A DNA stretch of 64,000 nucleotides from Cordylochernes scorpioides (taxonomy: Eukaryota; Arthropoda; Arachnida; Pseudoscorpiones; Chernetidae): positions 139,709,505 to 139,773,504 of the forward strand of contig CP092865.1 of NCBI GenBank assembly GCA_030710605.1, given 5' to 3'. Positions 8,881 to 61,690 of the stretch are shown here, one piece after another (within the stretch, counting starts at the first letter, position 1; each line of letters starts with the position of its first letter). Under the pieces are notes generated by a model that was not told the DNA's origin, made no database searches, and saw only the letters and a program-made list of their open reading frames with translations. A program made the translations under genes and the position numbers.

Positions 8881-8916
8881 TAAATACCCTTTCTTGAGAA
8901 TACCAAGAATTTTTTA

Positions 8917-9142
8917 AGAAAAAGGAATCTCCTTATCGTGCAACTGAAAGTTGCTGATGGCTTGCGCCATCTATTGGAATAAATATCAACTATTCTCGTT
9001 GATTTTTAATTATTCCAAAATTGGCCAAATACCCATTCTTGATTAAACGATAAAAAACAACGAGAATAGTTGATATTTATTCCAATAGATGGCGCAAGCC
9101 ATCATCAACTTTCAGTTGCACGATAAGGAGATGTCTTTTTTC
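8917..9142. mobile_element. Hairpin element C (inverted pair of H1 repeats)
   Basis: Arms CTCCTTATCGTGCAACTGAA... and its complement, spacer about 55 bp. Each arm contains GATGGCTTGCGCCATC, itself a 6-bp stem with a TTGC loop, next to CAACTGAAAGTTG. These are two H1 repeats placed head to head. Confidence 0.75.
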
Positions 9143-9330
9143 ATAATTTATGCACCTTATCCCAGTACAATATTACATTTGTACTATTTTTTCACCAAGA
9201 ATTTATTATGGAATAATTCAAACGATTAGTATATATTTATTCCGATAGATGGTGCAAGCCATTAGCAACTTTCATTCACCTGATCAGTAAATGCCTTTTT
9301 CTTAATTAAATAACTGGATCCCATTACAAT
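9143..9330 (-). repeat. H1 repeat, diverged half copy
   Basis: Contains the CAGTACAATATTACATTTGT block, then GATAGATGGTGCAAGCCATT and a GCAACTTTC block. It is a single-arm copy of the family in hairpin C. Confidence 0.6.
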
Positions 9331-10000: not shown

Positions 10001-10052
10001 TAATCATATACGCCGCAGTCCTTTATAATATATATATATATAAAGAGACAAG

Positions 10053-10117
10053 TGTCGCCTCTCCCGTCAAAATAGACGTCAAAACTTGACGTCATCTATT
10101 TTGACAGGAGAGGCGAC
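10053..10117. repeat. Hairpin element E
   Basis: Perfect-looking 65-bp palindrome whose arms begin GTCGCCTCTCC and contain AATAGACGTC. The same arm text appears in single orientation at 61327-61350 and 61650-61680 and as a hairpin at 38561-38662. Confidence 0.7.
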
Positions 10118-10124
10118 CTTTGTT

Positions 10125-10270
10125 GGATCAGGTGAATAAATTAAGAAAAAAGACATCACAAGAAACGGTATTTGGCCAAACCTGGAATAATTAAAAATCA
10201 ACAATAGTTGATATTTGTACCGATAGATGCAACTTTTAGCCGCATGACCAGGAGATTCCCTTTTTGTTAA
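10125..10270 (+). repeat. H1 repeat copy
   Basis: Begins GGATCAGGTGAATAAATTAA, then GGCCAAACCTGGAATAATTA and AACAATAGTTGATATTTG, and ends with a diverged GATAGATGC block. Confidence 0.6.
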
Positions 10271-11725: not shown

Positions 11726-11774
11726 GCACCACGCTGGCCGAGAACCAACCGCCCGAAACGCGTACATCGTTGGC
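11726..11774 (+). ncRNA. Hammerhead ribozyme relic, HH-a family
   Basis: Reads CACCACG, then CTGGCCGA in place of CTGATGA, a stem II region, CGAAACGCG, and TTGGCTTTTCTTG downstream. Flanks match the intact copy at 12757-12798 (reverse strand). The core is mutated, so cleavage is not expected. Confidence 0.5.
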
Positions 11775-12600
11775 TTTTCTTGATTAATCAAGAAAATGAG
11801 TTGGACAAATATCATAAAACGAGTTAAATCAACGTTTAGTTAATTTTTGTTCCACTAGATGACGCTCTGCTATCTAAAAATATTCATGTGAGCAGTCAGG
11901 ATATGCCTTTTATGTTTTCAACATCAACACTTAACCTTTTTTTTAATCTTTTTTCTTCTTTTTTTTTCATATACATTAATAACAATATATAGTTTAATCT
12001 GTAAATTAAAACACACGCGATCTTTATTCAAATATAAAAAATAATAAATGTGATTTGTATTATCAATCAAATATAAACTGTATATACAGAGGTATAGCTA
12101 TCTGTTAGATATATATATGTGGTACATAATCAGCTAAAGGTAACTCTAGAAAAAAAAGTGAATAATCGACAATTTAGTTTCAAACTTCCATAATATACTC
12201 CAATTTTAACATAAGGTAAAAAGCAATCATTGCGGAAGAATTTTTACAAAATAAATCTTAGATAAAGAGGAATGTGCAGAGTCTATTAATCAGTTCACGC
12301 AAACTTTGGAAAAACTTCTAAATGAGAAAAGTAATTGGTTTGGCTCTTAGATGGCTGGAATTATTATGGATGTGTGGGAGGTTTCTTTCCTTCTAGCTTG
12401 TGTTGGATGTTATTGATAGTGGGATTGATTTCTATGGAACATGATCCATGGGCAGCTATGGCCTTGTTGATTCCACTTCTATGGCTGCTTCGTATTTCTA
12501 CATAGCTTCCTCATTGTACCTACTTTTTACATCACTCATTCTCTCTCTCCCATCTACATTTGATGTTTGCGGAAGAGCGATTGCTCGAAGCATATTATAT
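11775..12600. other. AT-rich DNA, no gene recognised
   Basis: Contains repeat scraps (GACGCTCTGC, GGATATGCCTTT) near 11860-11910. A 68-aa plus frame at 12448-12654 has no motif. At about 12563-12600 the block TTTGCGGAAGAGCGATTGCT begins, which also opens the composite repeat at 38770. Confidence 0.45.
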
Positions 12601-12735
12601 ATTTATAAATGTAAGAAAAAGCCATCTCCTTATCGTGCAACTGAAAGTTGCTGATGGCTTGCGCCATCTATCGGAATAAATATCAACTATTCTCTTTGAT
12701 TTCTAATTATTCCAGAATTAGCCAAATACCTATTA
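12601..12735 (+). repeat. H1 repeat copy
   Basis: CTCCTTATCGTGCAACTGAA, GATGGCTTGCGCCATCTATC, then a CAACTATTCTC block and a TTAGCCAAATACC end. Close to the arms of hairpin C. Confidence 0.7.
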
Positions 12736-12756
12736 TTGATTAATCAAGAAAAGCTA

Positions 12757-12798
12757 ACCACGGACGCGTTTCAGGCTGTTGGCCCTCATCAGCGTGGT
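12757..12798 (-). ncRNA. Hammerhead ribozyme, type I with minimal stem III
   Basis: Minus strand: stem I 5' strand ACCACG (12798-12793), CTGATGA (12792-12786), stem II GGGC with loop CAACA or similar and GCCT (first pair G-U), GAAA (12772-12769), then CGCG, TC and CGTGGT. Stem III is only A-U and C-G around a GC loop. The cleavage triplet is GTC, with the cut expected 3' of C at 12763. CGTGGT pairs fully with ACCACG to rebuild stem I, and an outer AGCT/AGCT pairing can extend it. All invariant core bases are present. Such minimal stem III hammerheads are known from Penelope-like elements and tend to act as dimers. Activity is inferred. Confidence 0.75.
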
Positions 12799-12889
12799 GC
12801 AAGCTGTACCTCAACGACCAAAAAAAAAAAAAAGGTCATTAAGGCATCCTGAAAAATCATGAAACGGGTAGTTAAGGCCAGAATTGCGT

Positions 12890-13065
12890 GAGACCGCGAC
12901 ACAATGTGAAAAAATAGTACAAATGTGATATTGTACTGGGATAAGGTGCATAAATTAAGAAAAAGGCATCTGCTTATCGTGCAACTGAAAGTTGCTGATG
13001 GCTTGCGCCATCTATCGGAATAAATATAAACTATTCTCGTTGATTTATAATTATTCCAGAATATA
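12890..13065 (+). repeat. H1 repeat, best full copy
   Basis: Ordered blocks: GTGAAAAAATAGTACAAATG, ATTGTACTGGGATAAGGTGC, AAGAAAAAGGCATCTGC, TTATCGTGCAACTGAAAG, GATGGCTTGCGCCATCTATC, then ACTATTCTCGTTGATTTATA. Partial copies lie at 8298, 9143, 10125, 12601, 36585, 37467, 40445 and 56820. Confidence 0.75.
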
Positions 13066-21640: not shown

Positions 21641-24232
21641 TAAAAACACAAATCCTACTGCTCTTATCTGCTATGGGAAAATATTGAGAGGGCCTGGCTC
21701 ATCAGGGGTGAACCAAGCTCTCAGCCAGGCTCATCAATGGTGAATAAACTTCTCAGCCTGGCTCATCAATGGTGAACCAACCTCCCAGCCTGGCTCATCA
21801 GTGGTGAACCAACCTCCCAGTCTGGCTCATCAGTGGTGAACCAACCTCCCAGTCTGGCTCATCAATGGTGAACCAACCTCCCAGTCTGGCTCATCAATGG
21901 TGAACCAACCTCCCAGTCTGGCTCATCAGTGGTGAACCAACCTCCCAGTCTGGCTCATCAGTGGTGAACCAACCTCCCAGTCTGGCTCATCAATGGTGAA
22001 CCAACCTCCCAGCCTGGCTCATCAGTGGTGAACCAACCTCATAGTCTGGCTCATCAGTGGTGAACCAACCTCCCAGCCTGGCTCATTCGTGGTGAACCAA
22101 CCTCTCAGCCTGGCTCATCCGTGGTGAACCAACCTCCCAGTCTGGCTCATCAGTGGTGAACCAACCTCCCAGTCTGGCTCATCAGTGGTGAACCAACCTC
22201 CCAGCCTGGCTCATCAGTGGTGAACCAACCTTCCAGCCTGGCTTATCAGTGGTGAACCAACCTCCCAGTCTGGCTCATCAACAGTGAATCAACCTCCCAG
22301 CCTGGCTCATCAGTGGTGAACCAACCTCCCAGCCTGGCTCATTCGTGGTGAACCAACCTCTCAGCCTGGCTCATCCGTGGTGAACCAACCTCCCAGTCTG
22401 GCTCATCAGTGGTGAACCAACCTCCCAGTCTGGCTCATCAACGGTGAACCAACCTCCCAGCCTGGCTCATCAGTGGTGAACCAACCTCCCAGTCTGGCTC
22501 ATCAGTGGTGAACCAACCTCCCAGTCTGGCTCATCAGTGGTGAACCAACCTCCCAGCTCCCAGTCTGGCTCATCAGTGGTGAACCAACCTCCCAGTCTGG
22601 CTCATCAGTGGTGAACCAACCTTCCAGTCTGGCTCATCAGTGGTGAACCAACCTCCCAGCTCCCAGTCTGGCTCATCAGTGGTGAACCAACCTCCCAGCC
22701 TGGCTCATCAGTGGTGAACCAACCTCCCAGCCTGGCTCATCAGTGGTGAACCAACCTCCCAGCCTGGCTCATCAGTGGTGAACCAACCTCCCAGCCTGGC
22801 TCATCCGTGGTGAACCAACCTCCCAGTCTGGCTCATCAGTGGTGAACCAACCTCCCAGTCTGGCTCATCAGTGGTGAACCAACCTCCCAGCCTGGCTCAT
22901 CAGTGGTGAACCAACCTTCCAGCCTGGCTCATCAGTGGTGAACCAACCTCCCAGTCTGGCTCATCAACGGTGAACCAACCTCCCAGCCTGGCTCATCAGT
23001 GGTGAACCAACCTCCCAGCCTGGCTCATTCGTGGTGAACCAACCTCTCAGCCTGGCTCATCCGTGGTGAACCAACCTCCCAGTCTGGCTCATCAGTGGTG
23101 AACCAACCTTCCAGCCTGGCTTATCAGTGGTGAACCAACCTCCCAGCCTGGCTCATCAGTGGTGAACCAACCTCCCAGCCTGGCTCATTCGTAGTGAACC
23201 AACCTCCCAGTCTGGCTCATCAGTGGTGAACCAACCTCCCAGTCTGGCTCATCAGTGGTGAACCAACCTCCCAGCCTGGCTTATCAGTGGTGAACCAACC
23301 TCCCAGTCTGGCTCATCAACGGTGAACCAACCTCCCAGCCTGGCTCATCAACGGTGAACCTACCTCCCAGCCTGGCTCATCAGTGGTGAACCAACCTTCC
23401 AGCCTGGCTCATCAGTGGTGAACCAACCTTCCAGCCTGGCTTATCAGTGGTGAACCAACCTCCCAGTCTGGCTCATCAACGGTGAACCAACCTCCCAGCC
23501 TGGCTCATCAGTGGTGAACCAACCTCCCAGTCTGGCTCATCAGTGGTGAACCAACCTCCCAGCCTGGCTCATCAGTGGTGAACCAACCTCCCAGTCTGGC
23601 TCATCAGTGGTGAACCAACCTTCCAGCCTGGCTCATCAGTGGTGAACCAACCTTCCAGCCTGGCTTATCAGTGGTGAACCAACCTCCCAGTCTGGCTCAT
23701 CAACGGTGAACCAACCTCCCAGCCTGGCTCATCAGTGGTGAACCAACCTCCCAGTCTGGCTCATCAACGGTGAACCAACCTCCCAGCCTGGCTCATCAGT
23801 GGTGAACCAACCTCCCAGCCTGGCTCATTCGTGGTGAACCAACCTCTCAGCCTGGCTCATCCGTGGTGAACCAACCTCCCAGTCTGGCTCATCAGTGGTG
23901 AACCAACCTTCCAGCCTGGCTTATCAGTGGTGAACCAACCTCCCAGCCTGGCTCATCAGTGGTGAACCAACCTCCCAGCCTGGCTCATTCGTAGTGAACC
24001 AACCTCTCAGCCTGGCTCATCCGTGGTGAACCAACCTCCCAGTCTGGCTCATCAGTGGTGAACCAACCTCCCAGTCTGGCTCATCAGTGGTGAACCAACC
24101 TCCCAGCCTGGCTTATCAGTGGTGAACCAACCTCCCAGTCTGGCTCATCAACGGTGAACCAACCTCCCAGCCTGGCTCATCAGTGGTGAACCTACCTCCC
24201 AGCCTGGCTCATCAGTGCTGAACCAACCTTCC
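21641..24232 (-). repeat. 32-bp minisatellite, about 79 units, grown from a module repeat
   Basis: 21641-21690 is the opening of a minus-strand module (CCTACTGCTCTTATCTGC, then AAAATATTGAGAGGGCC). From 21691 the sequence CCTGGCTCATCAGTGG plus TGAACCAACCTCCCAG repeats with a 32-base period to 24232. Variants (CATTCG, CATCCG, CTTATC, CATCAACGG) mark longer-range structure: blocks at 23019 and 23819 match over about 190 bp at an offset of exactly 800 bases (25 units), and 22077 and 22333 are 256 apart (8 units). A 7-base CTCCCAG insertion occurs twice near 22554 and 22655. No spacers, so it is not a CRISPR array. Confidence 0.95.
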
Positions 24233-26608: not shown

Positions 26609-26811
26609 TAAAATTTTACACAAATAAATTTACTGGCAATGCGTTTCTTTTAAAATACAATATAACGCGGCTGATGATTGTAAAACGAAAATTGAAATTA
26701 TACCGCGAATGTTTCTTTATAAAAGAAACATTCGCGTTTCTTTTAAATATTTAATATTTGATGATATTTAAAAGAAACGCATTGCCAGTAAATTTATTTG
26801 TGTAAAATTTT
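26609..26811. mobile_element. Hairpin element G
   Basis: Outer arms ACACAAATAAATTTACTGGC... and complement. An inner palindrome TGTTTCTTTATAAAAGAAAC sits at about 26709. Related arms at 38200-38540 and 60833-61035 define a family. Confidence 0.75.
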
Positions 26812-26889
26812 ATACTTCTTCATTGCAATATCATTATTTTCAAAAGCCTTTTATTGAGACACAGACTCGTCCCGGAGTTCTAGAAAGAA

Positions 26890-27060
26890 CAAAAAATCCA
26901 ACAATTATAAATGGAAATTTTGCCGAGAGGATATTGATCTATAAAAATAAAAATCACCTCTCCCGTTAAAAAATGCTTTAAAGCTAGACGCCATCCATTG
27001 ACCGTCGTCGCAAATTAGCGGCCTCGGATCGTTGACAAAACCACAACACCAGCTTTGGAA
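26890..27060 (+). repeat. HH-f repeat, body
   Basis: TTTTGCCGAGAGGATATTGA, CACCTCTCCCGTTAAAAAAT, GACGCCATCCATTGACCGTC and CACAACACCAGCTTTGG. The same order occurs at 61280-61440 before the ribozyme copy there. Confidence 0.7.
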
Positions 27061-27075
27061 AACTGAAAAGCGTCC

Positions 27076-27118
27076 ACCTAGAGACCATGGTTTCTGGCTA
27101 ATGACACTCGTCAGTTTG
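27076..27118 (-). ncRNA. Hammerhead ribozyme, left arm, impaired
   Basis: On minus: CTGACGA (27113-27107), a stem II region GTGTC...GCCA that pairs poorly, GAAA (27093-27090), stem III ACC-AT-GGT, cleavage triplet GTC, then TCTAGG. Core bases and triplet are intact. Stem II is disrupted, and the 5' strand of stem I is ACAAA instead of CCTAGA, so activity is doubtful. Confidence 0.6.
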
Positions 27119-27165
27119 TGAATATTCCATTAGATCCCGTGTAGATCTCATGGAATAAAGTCCGC

Positions 27166-27209
27166 CCTAGACTGACGAGGGCCATTAGCCCGAAACCATG
27201 GTTTCTAGG
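27166..27209 (+). ncRNA. Hammerhead ribozyme, type I, intact core
   Basis: CCTAGA (27166-27171) pairs with TCTAGG (27204-27209) as stem I. CTGACGA occupies 27172-27178. Stem II is GGGC (27179-27182), loop CATTA, GCCC (27188-27191). GAAA is at 27192-27195. Stem III is ACC (27195-27197), loop AT, GGT (27200-27202). The cleavage triplet is GTT, with the cut expected after T at 27203. Every invariant hammerhead base is present; GUU is permitted though slower than GUC in known ribozymes. Stem III has three pairs, short as in Penelope-like and retrozyme hammerheads. Self-cleavage is inferred from structure. Confidence 0.85.
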
Positions 27210-27234
27210 TGAACGCTTCTTAGAACGCTTCTAT

Positions 27235-27588
27235 ATTTTTGAAGGAGACAGAAGCAATTTTGTCCACACTTGGTTATCCCGTTGTGTCTTCAATAAAGTG
27301 TTATATCTTTTATACTGTTTCTATTTTACCTTTAGCCATATTTATACATATATATTTAATACAGCCTCTGTATATATAGACATTCAATACAGCACCGCGC
27401 TAGATGGATTGCATATTTATTATGGCTCCATTGCTTATGCCAACCTTGTTACCGGATCTTTATATCTATACAGATTATACTATATACAACATAAAGGTCA
27501 CTATAATATCTTTCAGAGTTATTGTATACATCCCGATATACATTCTAAAAGGTAAAACCCTTTAAGTTTTGTCTATGGGTGTATTTAA
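27235..27588 (+). mobile_element. Mariner-like MITE right part with internal insertion
   Basis: GGAGACAGAAGCAATTTTGT to CTTCAATAAAGTG, then about 190 bp of foreign AT-rich DNA, then AAGGTCACTATAATATC and GAGTTATTGTATACATCCCG to TTTTGTCTATGGGTG. The terminus on the left is missing. Confidence 0.6.
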
Positions 27589-27774: not shown

Positions 27775-28160
27775 TAAGACAAAAAATGTCAGTGTTTGAC
27801 GCTGATGCTTTGGAAAAATACAAGATAATTGAACAAAAATAAGAAAAGATCAAATATGTGAAATAAACTCTGAGAGAAAACTGACAAAAACTATAACAAG
27901 ACACAGAACAAAACACTATAAAGGAATGACAATACATCCAGATGGCACAAGAACCTATAGGACATGCAACAATTGTCCTGGTGTGGAACTAACACCTACT
28001 CACATATTCTCATGTCCAGCAATGGCCGCAGCCTTGCAGAAAATTGACATAGATCCAGAGCAACAGCTTTACACACCCAAGATAGTGGACATTGCTGCTG
28101 CTGTGATAAAGATGTATGGAGACATCTGAGGCTGTTCATTGGCACGACAACAACAACTAA
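27775..28160 (+). pseudogene. LINE 3' end, sister of the 1-736 copy
   Basis: Matches 360-736 closely. The frame at 27926-28129 has an intact knuckle CNNCPGVELTPTHIFSC and continues through DIDPEQQLYTPKIVDIAAAV to a stop after YGDI. An in-frame TAA near 27840 breaks the protein upstream. The tail ACGACAACAACAAC marks the LINE 3' end. Comparison shows that the first copy lost a dozen bases and its final cysteine. Confidence 0.8.
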
Positions 28161-30367: not shown

Positions 30368-30415
30368 GTCAACCACGAACGCGTTTTGGGCTGTTGACCA
30401 TTGTAATCGTGGTGC
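30368..30415 (-). ncRNA. Hammerhead relic, HH-a family
   Basis: On minus: CACCACG, then ATTACAA where CTGATGA is expected, TGGTCAACAGCCC as stem II, AAAACGCG, and TTCGTGGTTGACTTTTCTTG. Flanks and stem I agree with 12757-12798. The core has decayed by transitions. Confidence 0.55.
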
Positions 30416-37466: not shown

Positions 37467-37575
37467 GAAAAATAGTACAAAAGTGAAATTATAATGGGAT
37501 CAGCTGGATAAATTTAAAGAAAAACATCTTGATCAGCAACCTTTAGTTAAACGATGAGGAGATGACTTTCTCTTT
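37467..37575 (+). repeat. H1 repeat copy, diverged
   Basis: AATAGTACAAAAGTGAAATT, GGGATCAGCTGGATAAATTT, GATCAGCAACCTTTAGTTAA. Confidence 0.6.
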
Positions 37576-38560: not shown

Positions 38561-38662
38561 TACAAAATAGACGTAAAAACTAAACGTTATCTATTGACTG
38601 TCACCTCAAACTAGCACGGTCAATAGTCAATAGATGGTGTCTAGTTTTGACGTCTATTTTGA
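38561..38662. repeat. Hairpin J, E family
   Basis: Arms CAAAATAGACGT...CTATTGAC and complement, spacer about 20 bp. Confidence 0.65.
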
Positions 38663-38769
38663 TAGGAGAGACGCGAACTTTATTTGTATGGATTATTATC
38701 CTATCGGTAAATGTTTTCCATATAAATGCTAATGCATCATAATATGATTGATATAATAAAAGACACAAT

Positions 38770-40444: not shown

Positions 40445-40600
40445 AAATAATGTGAAAAAATAGTACAAAAGTGAAATTGTACTTCTGTAATTCTGGAATA
40501 ATTAAAAATCAACAAATAGTTGAATATTTATTCCGACAGATGGCGCAAGCAATCGGCAACTTTTAGTTGCATGATTAGTAAATGCGTTTTTCTTAGTAAC
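40445..40600 (-). repeat. H1 repeat copies, diverged
   Basis: GTGAAAAAATAGTACAAAAG, then GGAATAATTAAAAATCAACA, CAGATGGCGCAAGCAATC, GCAACTTTTAGTTGC. Confidence 0.6.
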
Positions 40601-53561: not shown

Positions 53562-53613
53562 ACGGCAAATCGGGTTCGCGTTACGGGATGTTGATCCACA
53601 TCAGCGTGTTGCA
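53562..53613 (-). ncRNA. Hammerhead relic, HH-a family
   Basis: On minus: CAACACG, CTGATGT, GGATCAACATCC as stem II, GTAAC in place of GAAAC, GCG, AACCCG. Two invariant bases are changed. Confidence 0.55.
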
Positions 53614-55640: not shown

Positions 55641-55780
55641 TTAGCGCCTTAAATAAATGCATATATTAGTTAATAACTATAGCCTATGAGCTTTATCTGT
55701 CTATGTACTGTTGGCTTCCGTAGGCGTCTCATACTGGGAAAAAGAAAGAGAGGATTCCATTTAGTTATTAACTTATATAT
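55641..55780. repeat. Hairpin flanking the LINE
   Basis: AAATGCATATATTAGTTAAT (55656) is complementary to ATTAACTTATATATGCATTT (55767), and the motif recurs at 56619. Confidence 0.5.
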
Positions 55781-56620
55781 GCATTTACTCGCTCCTACCC
55801 GGTGGGTCAATGCCTGCATTAGGGACTTCGCTGGCCCTGCCCCTCCCCTCACTCGGCCTACGCGCTGCGCCCTGGCTGACGCCGCGTCGCTGACCAGCTT
55901 CTGCCGTCGTCTTATCGACGAAAATCTACGCGGGACCTACCGAGTAAACACCATCGGCCAGGCCGTAGTGCTGCGCGGGACGACTACGCCGTTCTTGCGA
56001 GTCATCACCCGAACTGCCCGTCGCATCTTAGAGCGTCCACGCCTGACTGCCCTGCCCATCATCCAGTTCGCTAGAAGGTGGGAGGAAAATATAAACCTAC
56101 CCATCAACATCGGCTGGTCGTCGCTCCGGCGCTGCGCCTTCTCCGGGCACAACGCGGACGTGGCAGTAAGGCTAGCTTTGCACGCCCTGCCCCATCCAGC
56201 CCATCCAGCATCGGCACATCAGTCTTGCATCGCCTGTGGGTCCGGCGACCTGTCGCTGGTTCACAGGTACTGGTCCTGCCGCTACATCAGGCCTCTCATC
56301 AGGGAGGCATTTACCATCATCGGGCGGCCCCCTGACTTGCAGGGCTGGGTCTTCGGGCATGGCCTAGACGATGACGCCCTGGCCATCCTGGCGTCTGCCA
56401 AGACGCGCATCTATAGGCACTTCCTCGGCGAGGAACTGAGGAGTGTACAAGAAGACCCCCTCCTTGTCTGGAGGAGGACCCTCTCAAGGTGGGGAAGCCC
56501 TCCTTGCTGAAGATATTTGTATATATATTCCCCTACACTTTATATGCCCATTTACTCTTTTATATTTTCTCCTTTGTAAAATTTGATTGAAAGAATCAAT
56601 AAAATTGTTTAATTTGTTGT
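55781..56620 (+). pseudogene. LINE C-terminus, longest intact stretch, with 3' UTR
   Basis: The 274-codon frame spans 55686-56510; its LINE-derived part starts near 55790. It ends the polyprotein of a non-LTR retrotransposon: a basic region, then C-x2-C-x8-H-x4-C (CIACGSGDLSLVHRYWSC, about residues 180-197), then RPPDLQGWVFGHGLDDDALA and a final WRRTLSRWGSPPC. Reverse transcriptase and endonuclease domains are absent, so it is 5'-truncated, but the remaining frame has no stop and is G+C-rich, unlike its surroundings, suggesting a young copy. The 3' UTR has CCCCTACACTTTATATGCC and AAAGAATCAATAAAATTG. Related fragments: 15717, 48570 and 49807. Confidence 0.8.
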
Positions 56621-57689: not shown

Positions 57690-60600
57690 TCCGTAATCAA
57701 AACTGCCCGTGCCATCACATAGTTTGTCGTTGTACAACGGACACAAGGTGACACACAGCTTTATAATGTTGTACAACAATCAAAACTGCCCGTGCCATCA
57801 CATAGTTTGTCGTTGTACAACGGGCATAAGGTGACACACAGCTTTATAATGTTGTACAGCAATCAAAACTGCCCGTGCCATCACATAGTTTGTTGTTGTA
57901 CAACGGACACAAGGTGACACACAGCTTTATAATGTTGTACAACAATCAAAACTGCCCGTGCCATCACATAGTTTGTCGCTGTACAACGGACACAAGGTGA
58001 CACACAGCTATATAATGTTGTACAGCAATCAAAACTGCCCGTGCCATCACATAGTTTGTTGTTGTACAACGGACATAAGGTGACACACAGCTTTATAATG
58101 ATGTACAACAATCAAAACTGCCCGTGCCATCACATAGTTTGTCGCTGTACAACGGACACAAGGTGACACACAGCTATATAATGTTGTACAGCAATCAAAA
58201 CTGCCCGTGCCATCACATAGTTTGTTGTTGTACAACGGACACAAGGTGACACACAGCTTTATAATGATGTACAACAATCAAAACTGCCCGTGCCATCACA
58301 TAGTTTGTTGTTGTACAACGGACACAAGGTGACACACAGCTTTATAATGATGTACAACAATCAAAACTGCCCGTGCCATCACATAGTTTGTTGTTGTACA
58401 ACGGACACAAGGTGACACACAGCTATATAATGTTGTACAGCAATCAAAACTGCCCGTGCCATCACATAGTTTGTTGTTGTACAACGGACATAAGGTGACA
58501 CACAGCTTTATAATGATGTACAACAATCAAAACTGCCCGTGCCATCACATAGTTTGTCGTTATACAACGGACACAAGGTGACACACAGCTCTATAATGTT
58601 GTACAGCAATCAAAACTGCCCGTGCCATCACATAGTTTGTTGTTGTACAACGGACATAAGGTGACACACAGCTTTATAATGTTGTACAGCAATCAAAACT
58701 GCCCGTGCCATCACATAGTTTGTTGTTGTACAACGGACACAAGGTGACACACAGCTTTATAATGATGTACAGCAATCAAAACTGCCCGTGCCATCACATA
58801 GTTTGTCGTTGTACAACGGACACAAGGTGACACAAAGCTTTATAATGTTGTACTGCAATCAAAACTGCCCGTGCCATCACATAGTTTGTTGTTGTACAAC
58901 GGACACAAGGTGACACACAGCTTTATAATGTTGTACAGCAATCAAAACTGCCCGTGCCATCACATAGTTTGTTGTTGTACAACGGACACAAGGTGACACA
59001 CAGCTTTATAATGTTGTACAGCAATCAAAACTGCCCGTGCCATCACATAGTTTGTCGTTGTACAACGGACACAAGGTGACACACAGCTTTATAATGTTGT
59101 ACAGCAATCAAAACTGCCCGTGCCATCACATAGTTTGTTGTTGTACAACGGACACAAGGTGACACACAGCTTTATAATGTTGTACAGCAATCAAAACTGC
59201 CCGTGCCATCACATAGTTTGTCGCTGTACAACGGACACAAGGTGACACACAGCTTTATAATGATGTATAGCAATCAAAACTGCCCGTGCCATCACATTGT
59301 TTGTCGTTATACAACGGACATAAGGTGACAAACAGCTCTATAATGATGTACAGCAATCAAAACTGCCCGTGCCATCACATAGTTTGTCGTTGTACAACGG
59401 ACACAAGGTGACACACAGCTTTATAATGTTGTACAGCAATCAAAACTGCCCGTGCCATCACATAGTTTGTCGTTGTACAACGGACACAAGGTGACACACA
59501 GCTCTATAATGTTGTACAACAATCAAAACTGCCCGTGCCATCACATAGTTTGTCGTTGTACAACGGACACAAGGTGACACACAGCTCTATAATGTTGTAC
59601 AACAATCAAAACTGCCCGTGCCATCACATAGTTTGTCGTTGTACAACGGACACAAGGTGACACACAGCTTTATAATGATGTACAACAATCAAAACTGCCC
59701 GTGCCATCACATAGTTTGTCGTTGTACAACGGACACAAAGTGACACACAGCTTTATAATGATGTACAGCAATCAAAACTGCCCGTGCCATCACATAGTTT
59801 GTCGTTGTACAACGGACACAAGGTGACACACAGCTTTATAATGATGTACAAAAATCAAAACTGCCCGTGCCATCACATAGTTTGTCGTTGTACAACGGAC
59901 ACAAGGTGACACACAGCTCTATAATGTTGTACAACAATCAAAACTGCCCGTACCATCACATAGTTTGTCGTTGTACAACGGACACAAGGTGACACACAGC
60001 TCTATAATGTTGTACAACAATCAAAACTGCCCGTGCCATCACATAGTTTGTCGTTGTACAACGGACACAAGGTGACACACTGCTCTATAATGTTGTACAG
60101 CAATCAAAACTGCCCGTGCCATCACATAGTTTGTCGTTGTACAACGGACACAAGGTGACACACAGCTTTATAATGTTGTACAACAATCAAAACTGCCCGT
60201 GCCATCACATAGTTTGTCGTTGTACAACGGACACAAGGTGACACACAGCTCTATAATGTTGTACAACAATCAAAACTGCCCGTGCCATCACATAGTTTGT
60301 CGTTGTACAACGGACACAAGGTGACACACAGCTTTATAATGATGTACAACAATCAAAACTGCCCGTGCCATCACATAGTTTGTCGTTGTACAACGGACAC
60401 AAGGTGACACACAGCTTTATAATGATGTACAAAAATCAAAACTGCCCGTGCCATCACATAGTTTGTCGTTGTACAACGGACACAAGGTGACACCCAGCTT
60501 TATAATGTTGTACAGCAATCAAAACTGCCCGTGCCATCACATAGTTTGTCGTTGTACAACGGATACAAGGTGACACACAGCTATATAATGTTGTACAGCA

Positions 60601-60696
60601 ATCAAAACTGCCCGTGCCATCACATAGTTTGTCGTTGTACAATGGACACAAGGTGACACCCAGCTTTATAATGTTGTACAGCAATCAAAACTGCCT
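57690..60696. repeat. 83-bp satellite, about 36 units
   Basis: CAAAACTGCCCGTGCCATCA recurs every 83 bases from 57698 (next 57781, 57864) to 60695. Each unit has two palindromes, GTTGTACAAC and CGTTGTACAACG. Between 57880 and 58540 two variants alternate (ATGATGTACAACAATC with GCTGTACAACGG; ATGTTGTACAGCAATC with GTTGTACAACGG), making a 166-bp higher-order unit. The 76-aa minus frames at 57881, 58047, 58296 and 60454 are satellite frames. Confidence 0.95.
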
Positions 60697-61269: not shown

Positions 61270-61530
61270 AAATATATAGATGGAAATTTTACCGGGAGGA
61301 AATTGATCTAAAGAGACAAGGGTCGCCTCTCCCGTCAAAATAGACGTCTAAAACCAGACGCCATCTATTGACCCTCGCCGCAATTAGCGGCCTTGGGTCG
61401 GTGACAAAGCCACAACACCAGCTTTGGCAAACTGAAAAGCATCCACCTAGAGACGATGGTTCCGGGCTAACGGCCCTCGTCAGCCTAAGGCGGACTTTAT
61501 TCCATGAGATCCACACGGGATCTAATGGAA
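61270..61530 (+). repeat. HH-f repeat, second copy
   Basis: TTTTACCGGGAGGAAATTGA, GGGTCGCCTCTCCCGTCAAA, a GACGCCATCTATTGACC block, CACAACACCAGCTTTGGC, then the ribozyme relic and TTCCATGAGATCCACACGGG. Confidence 0.75.
61446..61490 (-). ncRNA. Hammerhead relic, HH-f family
   Basis: On minus: CTGACGA, stem II GGGC-CGTTA-GCCC, GGAA where GAAA is required, CCATCGTC with a GTC triplet, TCTAGG. One invariant base is changed, stem III has a mismatch, and stem I pairs only partly. Confidence 0.6.
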
Positions 61531-61589
61531 TCTTGACAATCTGCCAAAGAGGTGTTTAGCTGGCAAAGTGGCTGAGCCAAATCTATGGC

Positions 61590-61690
61590 TAAAATATAGA
61601 TGGAAATTTTGCCGGGAGGAAATTGATCTAAAGAGACAAGGGTCACCTCTCCCGTCAAAATAGACGTCTAAACCAGACGCCATCTATATA
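61590..61690 (+). repeat. HH-f repeat, 5' fragment
   Basis: Repeats 61275-61370 (GATGGAAATTTTGCCGGGAG, GTCACCTCTCCCGTC) and stops at a TA run. Confidence 0.7.

Follow-up and report, generated by a model that had tools for sequence, protein, structure and literature searches.

The hammerhead motif at 27 kb

A type I hammerhead motif of 44 nt, HHR A1, lies on the + strand at 27166-27209 of the window, the whole 64,000-nt stretch of Cordylochernes scorpioides DNA that was analysed, and was identified by a descriptor match and by cross-family models. Its letters read CCTAGA CTGACGA GGGC CATTA GCCC GAA ACCATGGT T TCTAGG, corresponding to a 6-bp stem I (27166-27171/27204-27209, CCTAGA/TCTAGG), the core CTGACGA (27172-27178), a 4-bp stem II (27179-27182/27188-27191, GGGC/GCCC), the GAA element (27192-27194), the stem III segment (27195-27202) and U17 at 27203 (H17 = U, a GUU triplet), with the predicted cut between 27203 and 27204. 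Comparison with the core consensus given in an excerpt of PMC3088659 (C3 U4 G5 A6 N7 G8 A9 / G12 A13 A14 A15.1 / U16.1 H17) revealed agreement at every position. Both the letters and the descriptor thus confirmed the original prediction of a full set of invariant core bases, a 4-bp stem II, a 6-bp stem I and a GUU triplet, and the proposed start of the cleavage product at 27204 agrees with the motif geometry.

All core-adjacent pairs of the three stems are matched and stem I is open-ended, while stem III has only 2 bp. The 3-bp stem III proposed originally had to be abandoned: it would leave a 2-nt AU loop, and a plausible HHR A1 monomer would therefore have a stem III of 2 bp (A-U, C-G) closed by a CAUG tetraloop, a form mentioned for invertebrate hammerheads in part of PMC7229834. 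Within the stem III segment, ACCAUGGU is an 8-nt palindrome. Judging from the letters, this palindrome and the segment ACGCGU of a second hammerhead (HHR B1, below) would permit dimers, and dimeric action has been reported for newt and viroid hammerhead motifs (excerpt of PMC6155905).

Seven hammerhead loci in two repeat families

The window contains seven hammerhead loci, three in a repeat family termed A and four in an unrelated family termed B, of which two are intact. The second intact copy, HHR B1, is a complete type I hammerhead found by the descriptor at 12757-12798 on the - strand. It carries a GUC triplet and a stem I of ACCACG/CGTGGT, so its letters differ from those of HHR A1 (CCTAGA/TCTAGG). 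The descriptor counts its stem III segment, ACGCGU, generously, a realistic form being 1 bp with a CGCG loop. With its GUC triplet and no masking by a palindrome, HHR B1 is arguably the better hammerhead.

The other five loci are damaged to different extents. In family A, HHR A2 (27077-27114, -) is broken, with a mismatched stem II and an unmatched 5' strand of stem I, and HHR A3 (61446-61489, -) retains GUC and paired stems, including two G-U wobbles in stem I, with a core broken by A13->G. In family B, HHR B2 (11728-11771, +) and HHR B4 (53569-53610, -) are decayed, and HHR B3 (30372-30413, -) has a decayed core and a stem I that still pairs. Alignment of A1, A2 and A3 over 44 nt showed one column that differs in all three; where two sisters agree, A1 deviates only at U17, A2 at five columns and A3 at four. 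It is plausible that the A1 core has survived by chance in a decaying copy, which does not require selection.

Chance expectation and covariance models

A strict descriptor (stem I of at least 6, stem II of at least 4 and stem III of at least 2), the limits of which were chosen after both matches had been seen, matched once across 400 windows shuffled by dinucleotide (0.0025 per window) and twice in the real window, in line with the original statement that random DNA seldom meets the full motif. The looser limits that had been scanned first (4, 2, 2) gave 25 matches in 400 shuffles (0.0625 per window) versus the same two real matches.

No match to HHR A1 was returned by Rfam at the gathering score over the whole window, nor was a hammerhead found in permissive searches (E ≤ 10) of 1001 nt and of 76 nt around it. 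The original prediction had named a covariance score below threshold as grounds for rejecting the motif, and this is formally the outcome obtained. HHR B1 was also below threshold, with 22.3 bits against a cut-off of 52. Models built from the families themselves recovered both motifs reciprocally: the model trained on four family B copies had its best non-training match at 27166-27209 (24.4 bits, E 6.4e-5), and the model trained on three family A copies at 12757-12798 (29.5 bits, E 5.6e-6), the E-values being rough owing to short calibrations. Among the decayed copies, the family B model scored A3 at E 0.3 and A2 was absent at E ≤ 10, while the family A model scored B3 at E 1.8, with B2 and B4 absent at E ≤ 10. 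Because HHR B1 also falls far below the cut-off and a cross-family model does find HHR A1, we infer that Rfam missed it because its models handle hammerheads with a very short stem III poorly. An exact-pattern search for both hammerheads in viral contigs gave 0 matches, as expected because they belong to an animal repeat.

An AT-rich repeat could happen to satisfy the hammerhead descriptor, and in addition to the silence of Rfam on HHR A1, two results point that way. Taken on its own, the core pattern CTGANGA...GAAA is not rare, with eight occurrences in the window versus a shuffle mean of 3.76 and at least eight in 5 of 100 shuffles, and the folding of 27160-27215 (56 nt) is unremarkable (z -1.35), 23 of 200 shuffles being equally good. 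Against coincidence stand the shuffle counts of the full descriptor, the reciprocal detection of A1 and B1 by the cross-family models and the homologous decayed hammerheads in the sister copies of both families, and we regard such an origin as extremely improbable. Sequence, modelled structure and descent together support HHR A1 as a true type I hammerhead.

Anatomy of families A and B

The best-preserved copies, at 61 kb and 12 kb, share one layout. The sister family A insertion (61270-61687, -) consists of R1 (61591-61687), a body with the hammerhead and R2 (61270-61368), with a unit of 319 nt and R repeats of 97-99 nt, 96% identical, one on each side of the body. The family B insertion (12605-13062, -) has the same R1-body-R2 arrangement, with R1 at 12950-13062, a body containing HHR B1, R2 at 12605-12718 (R repeats of about 114 nt, R2 being 94.7% identical to R1) and a unit of 344 nt. 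The unit GC is 0.489 in family A and 0.387 in family B. Each of the two copies thus holds about 1.3 units and one hammerhead, located between the direct repeats. The element regions at 12 kb and 61 kb did not match each other in BLAST at E ≤ 0.01. The R repeats of both elements (12500-13062; 61270-61687) contain ATAGATGGCG, as noticed by eye, possibly a shared short signal.

Besides the reference copy, family B alignments stop at query base 12612/12613, the element end, at four further places (8915, 37574, 40595 and 53419); alignments that stop there and run on as R1 into the body were left out as uninformative. Inspection of eight 3' ends revealed no long poly(A) tail, one of them having a run of six A. 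Tandem hammerhead pairs, dimers or longer arrays of either family were absent from the window; with no copy carrying two tandem hammerheads, none of those in the window would itself yield a unit-length circle.

Domain scans, a weak test, recognised no coding domain in families A and B. Over the ORFs of the window, a Pfam search of 57 members gave a single marginal match, to Cript (E 0.0096), and the other scan gave only matches below curated cut-offs. No reverse transcriptase (RT) or GIY-YIG domain was found in the scanned ORFs, which made up 60 of the 62 stop-to-stop frames with at least 80 aa. This again is a weak test, especially for decayed ORFs: two ORFs with some relatives annotated as reverse transcriptase or RNase H escaped the same scans. 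These are ORF 294-617, with nine protein matches (six from Cordylochernes scorpioides and one from Trichonephila), and ORF 55683-56507, with 34 protein matches, all named Cordylochernes, in pieces up to 98% identical; we take both to be LINE fragments. The ORF fragments 294-617 and 27833-28126 are 84% identical in alignment and were taken as LINE C-terminal pieces. A bacterial ORF listing and a tRNA search of the window gave nothing relevant. Elsewhere, tandem arrays occupy 21692-24229 (32-bp units, about 79 copies) and 57695-60695 (83-bp units, about 36 copies), and 22001-24000 is GC-rich (0.57) within an otherwise AT-rich window.

The original prediction had likened the motif to the short-stem-III hammerheads of Penelope-like elements (PLEs) and retrozymes. 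The retrozyme half of this comparison is supported; for the Penelope half, the weak test above found no domain. PLEs do carry hammerheads, mostly minimal and without helix III (excerpt of PMC6155905), and are arranged as tandem or partial-tandem repeats (excerpt of PMC11167929), so the repeats could be parts of such an element, with hammerheads of the pLTR kind, rather than stand-alone retrozymes. We consider this unlikely in view of the domain result and of the 12 kb insertion, which measures only about 450 nt and has its single hammerhead between, not in, the direct repeats. Families A and B look instead like animal non-LTR retrozymes that are unrelated to each other.

The 27 kb palindrome and its predicted folding

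HHR A1 lies in a sense piece of family A (27112-27218, +) that is 88.8% identical to 61437-61543(-) and has both ends inside the unit. To its left is an antisense family A piece (26894-27115, -) that extends between core base C3 of the hammerhead and the 3' end of the element. The two are joined head-to-head, the junction bases CAG (27112-27114) fitting the antisense and sense pieces alike, and form an inverted repeat of 53 nt (27063-27115/27171-27223) with 87% complementarity. A palindromic repeat, as described originally, is therefore present, although its arms are decayed family A pieces and not evidently a functional palindrome. Directly left of it, at 26609-26812, is a perfect 46-nt inverted repeat with arms 112 nt apart.

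The predicted fate of HHR A1 depends on the transcript. In + transcripts that include the left arm (26990-27240 and 26890-27300), the hammerhead pairs have a predicted probability of 0, whereas in the + transcript 27116-27240 the predicted values are 0.51-0.88 for stem I and 0.95-0.96 for stem II. For the isolated A1 motif, stems I and II are predicted to be likely and the stem III pairs reach 3-8%; the bare motif is predicted to adopt a different minimum-energy fold (-12.6 kcal/mol, versus -9.3 kcal/mol for the hammerhead). The motif itself is complete, so the term 'intact' used in the original prediction applies to its letters and not to its predicted pairing in left-arm transcripts. As these pairs have zero predicted probability in the spanning + transcript, the A1 copy is probably a fossil.

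Head-to-head pairs and possible target-site duplications

The 27 kb locus is one of seven pairs of same-family inverted neighbours in the window, all of which (7/7) are head-to-head with the minus piece on the left. The geometry was noticed post hoc and read by eye from a BLAST table (E ≤ 1e-4, with gaps of up to 17 nt between neighbours); a two-sided sign test gave 0.016, and five of the seven pairs depend on a piece shorter than 50 nt. One of the two long pairs is a family B insertion at 8902-9208 (antisense 8914-9055, sense 9051-9195). At 10038-10229 two pairs of short pieces abut, one of family A (10038-10100(-)/10095-10123(+)) and one of family B (10125-10150(-)/10159-10229(+)); the neighbours 10095-10123(+) and 10125-10150(-), on opposite strands and from different families, were left out of the seven. 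The remaining pairs are at 37468-37574 (family B, 37468-37529(-)/37532-37574(+)), 38563-38727 (family A, 38563-38609(-)/38626-38727(+)) and 40449-40595 (family B, 40449-40483(-)/40488-40595(+)). The pairs vary in the unit segments that they hold and in overlap.

The 8.9 kb pair is flanked by ACCAAGAATTTTTTA (8902-8916) and ACCAAGAATTTATTA (9194-9208), with 14 of 15 bases alike, a probable target-site duplication. A possible duplication also flanks the 12 kb family B insertion (12601-12613/13061-13073). Nine loci were scored against controls with the tandem arrays masked, and the fraction of controls scoring as high was 0.46% at 8.9 kb, 1.4% at 12 kb, 1.4% at 61 kb, where the flanking repeat is low-complexity and AT-rich and hence weak, and 3.5% at 37 kb. 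The other five loci exceeded 5%, with 11% for the 10 kb family B pair, 25% at 40 kb, 52% at 27 kb, 77% at 38 kb and 77% for the 10 kb family A pair. With the unmasked control, which is inflated by the tandem arrays, no locus fell under 5%, the best being 8.3%. The probable duplication encloses the whole 8.9 kb pair, which points to an inversion inside a single insertion, made while the element was inserted.

The uniform orientation of the seven pairs might also be expected if the palindrome itself were functional, as a fold-back element or one with terminal inverted repeats whose arms are under selection, for example as a hairpin RNA. Very stable hairpins are indeed predicted for 26990-27240 (-110.4 kcal/mol on the + strand and -115.9 kcal/mol on the minus strand), and the minus strand matched the MIR475 precursor model at 33.2 bits (E 0.0004), which is below the cut-off of 70; this candidate was rejected and the match read as that of a hairpin. 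On the other side, the unit segments and overlap differ among pairs, the insertions at 12 kb and 61 kb have a direct and not an inverted layout, and the 27 kb arms are only 87% complementary. A functional palindrome is, in our judgement, very unlikely.

Discussion

The motif, the two families with their unit structure and decay, the head-to-head geometry and the predicted folding were observed directly in the window. On this basis, HHR A1 is likely to be the ribozyme belonging to family A, a small non-coding element of retrozyme-like type that has spread together with family B in this arachnid genome. Cutting, circle formation, reverse transcription by a partner enzyme and inversion at insertion are inferred, the first three by analogy with published animal retrozymes. 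Tandem source copies would be transcribed and their hammerheads would cut the RNA into unit-length pieces, which a host ligase may circularise. The RT of another retroelement might then copy the circle slightly more than once round, which would result in insertions that span about 1.3 units and contain a single hammerhead plus the short direct repeats R1 and R2. The 27 kb locus may be one such insertion, or its remains, with the 5' part inserted inverted; this inversion would have produced the palindrome and two opposed hammerheads, the broken A2 and the intact A1. Read-through of both arms would give a long hairpin that masks A1, and only RNA starting between the arms could be expected to fold and cut. 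Animal retrozymes are thought to move via circular RNAs copied by the RT of another element, the enzyme and the manner being unsettled, and the published candidates for the return of small hammerhead RNAs to DNA include LINEs, PLEs and others (both in part of PMC7229834). A PLE protein is able to cleave and extend both strands in vitro (excerpt of PMC11167929).

More tentatively, animal retrozymes may use target-primed reverse transcription to insert, with the opposite strand often serving for a second priming event; the 3' end would then recur, target-site duplications would measure at least a dozen bases, and head-to-head inversions would leave opposed hammerheads that silence each other. 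We give this reading less weight because the pieces are short and the unmasked control passed no locus, and consider it possible, with the odds somewhat against it. If true, second-strand priming bears directly on how small hammerhead RNAs re-enter DNA. That one 64 kb window holds two unrelated families whose ends can be recognised, together with inversions and possible target-site duplications, suggests a genome where the anatomy of insertions could be read directly. Literature searches pairing hammerhead with pseudoscorpion or with chelicerate terms found nothing.

The head-to-head geometry is the outcome expected of twin priming, known from LINE-1 inversions in which the 5' part is inverted relative to the 3' part. 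Families A and B resemble these in their inverted 5' part, their recurrent 3' end and, at one locus, a duplication outside the pair; they differ in a retrozyme-like RNA template and in the lack of long poly(A) at the eight 3' ends. With PLEs they share a hammerhead with a very short or missing stem III, and differ in that no domain was found (a weak test) and in a hammerhead outside the direct repeats. Newt and salamander satellite hammerheads also have a palindromic stem III segment that could lengthen in a dimer, as ACCAUGGU and ACGCGU could here (excerpts of PMC6155905 and PMC7229834), although A and B do not lie in a satellite array in this window. The closest comparison is with the animal non-LTR retrozymes (Cervera and de la Pena 2020, PMC7229834), described there as repeats of 150-450 bp that carry type I hammerheads, have a GC below 50% and, where target-site duplications are present, show lengths above 4 bp for these. 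Families A and B share with them the type I hammerhead, the short stem III and a non-coding repeat; units of 319 and 344 nt and a GC below 50% fall within the published ranges, and some loci show signs of target-site duplications above 4 bp. Animal retrozymes occur as tandem copies with two or more hammerheads, and the best copies of A and B comprise roughly 1.3 units with a single hammerhead, with no dimers or arrays in the window; the families also show recurrent head-to-head inversions and a pseudoscorpion host, a group that the excerpts do not mention. A and B look like additions to an already known type of animal retrozyme, the known range of which this host may widen.
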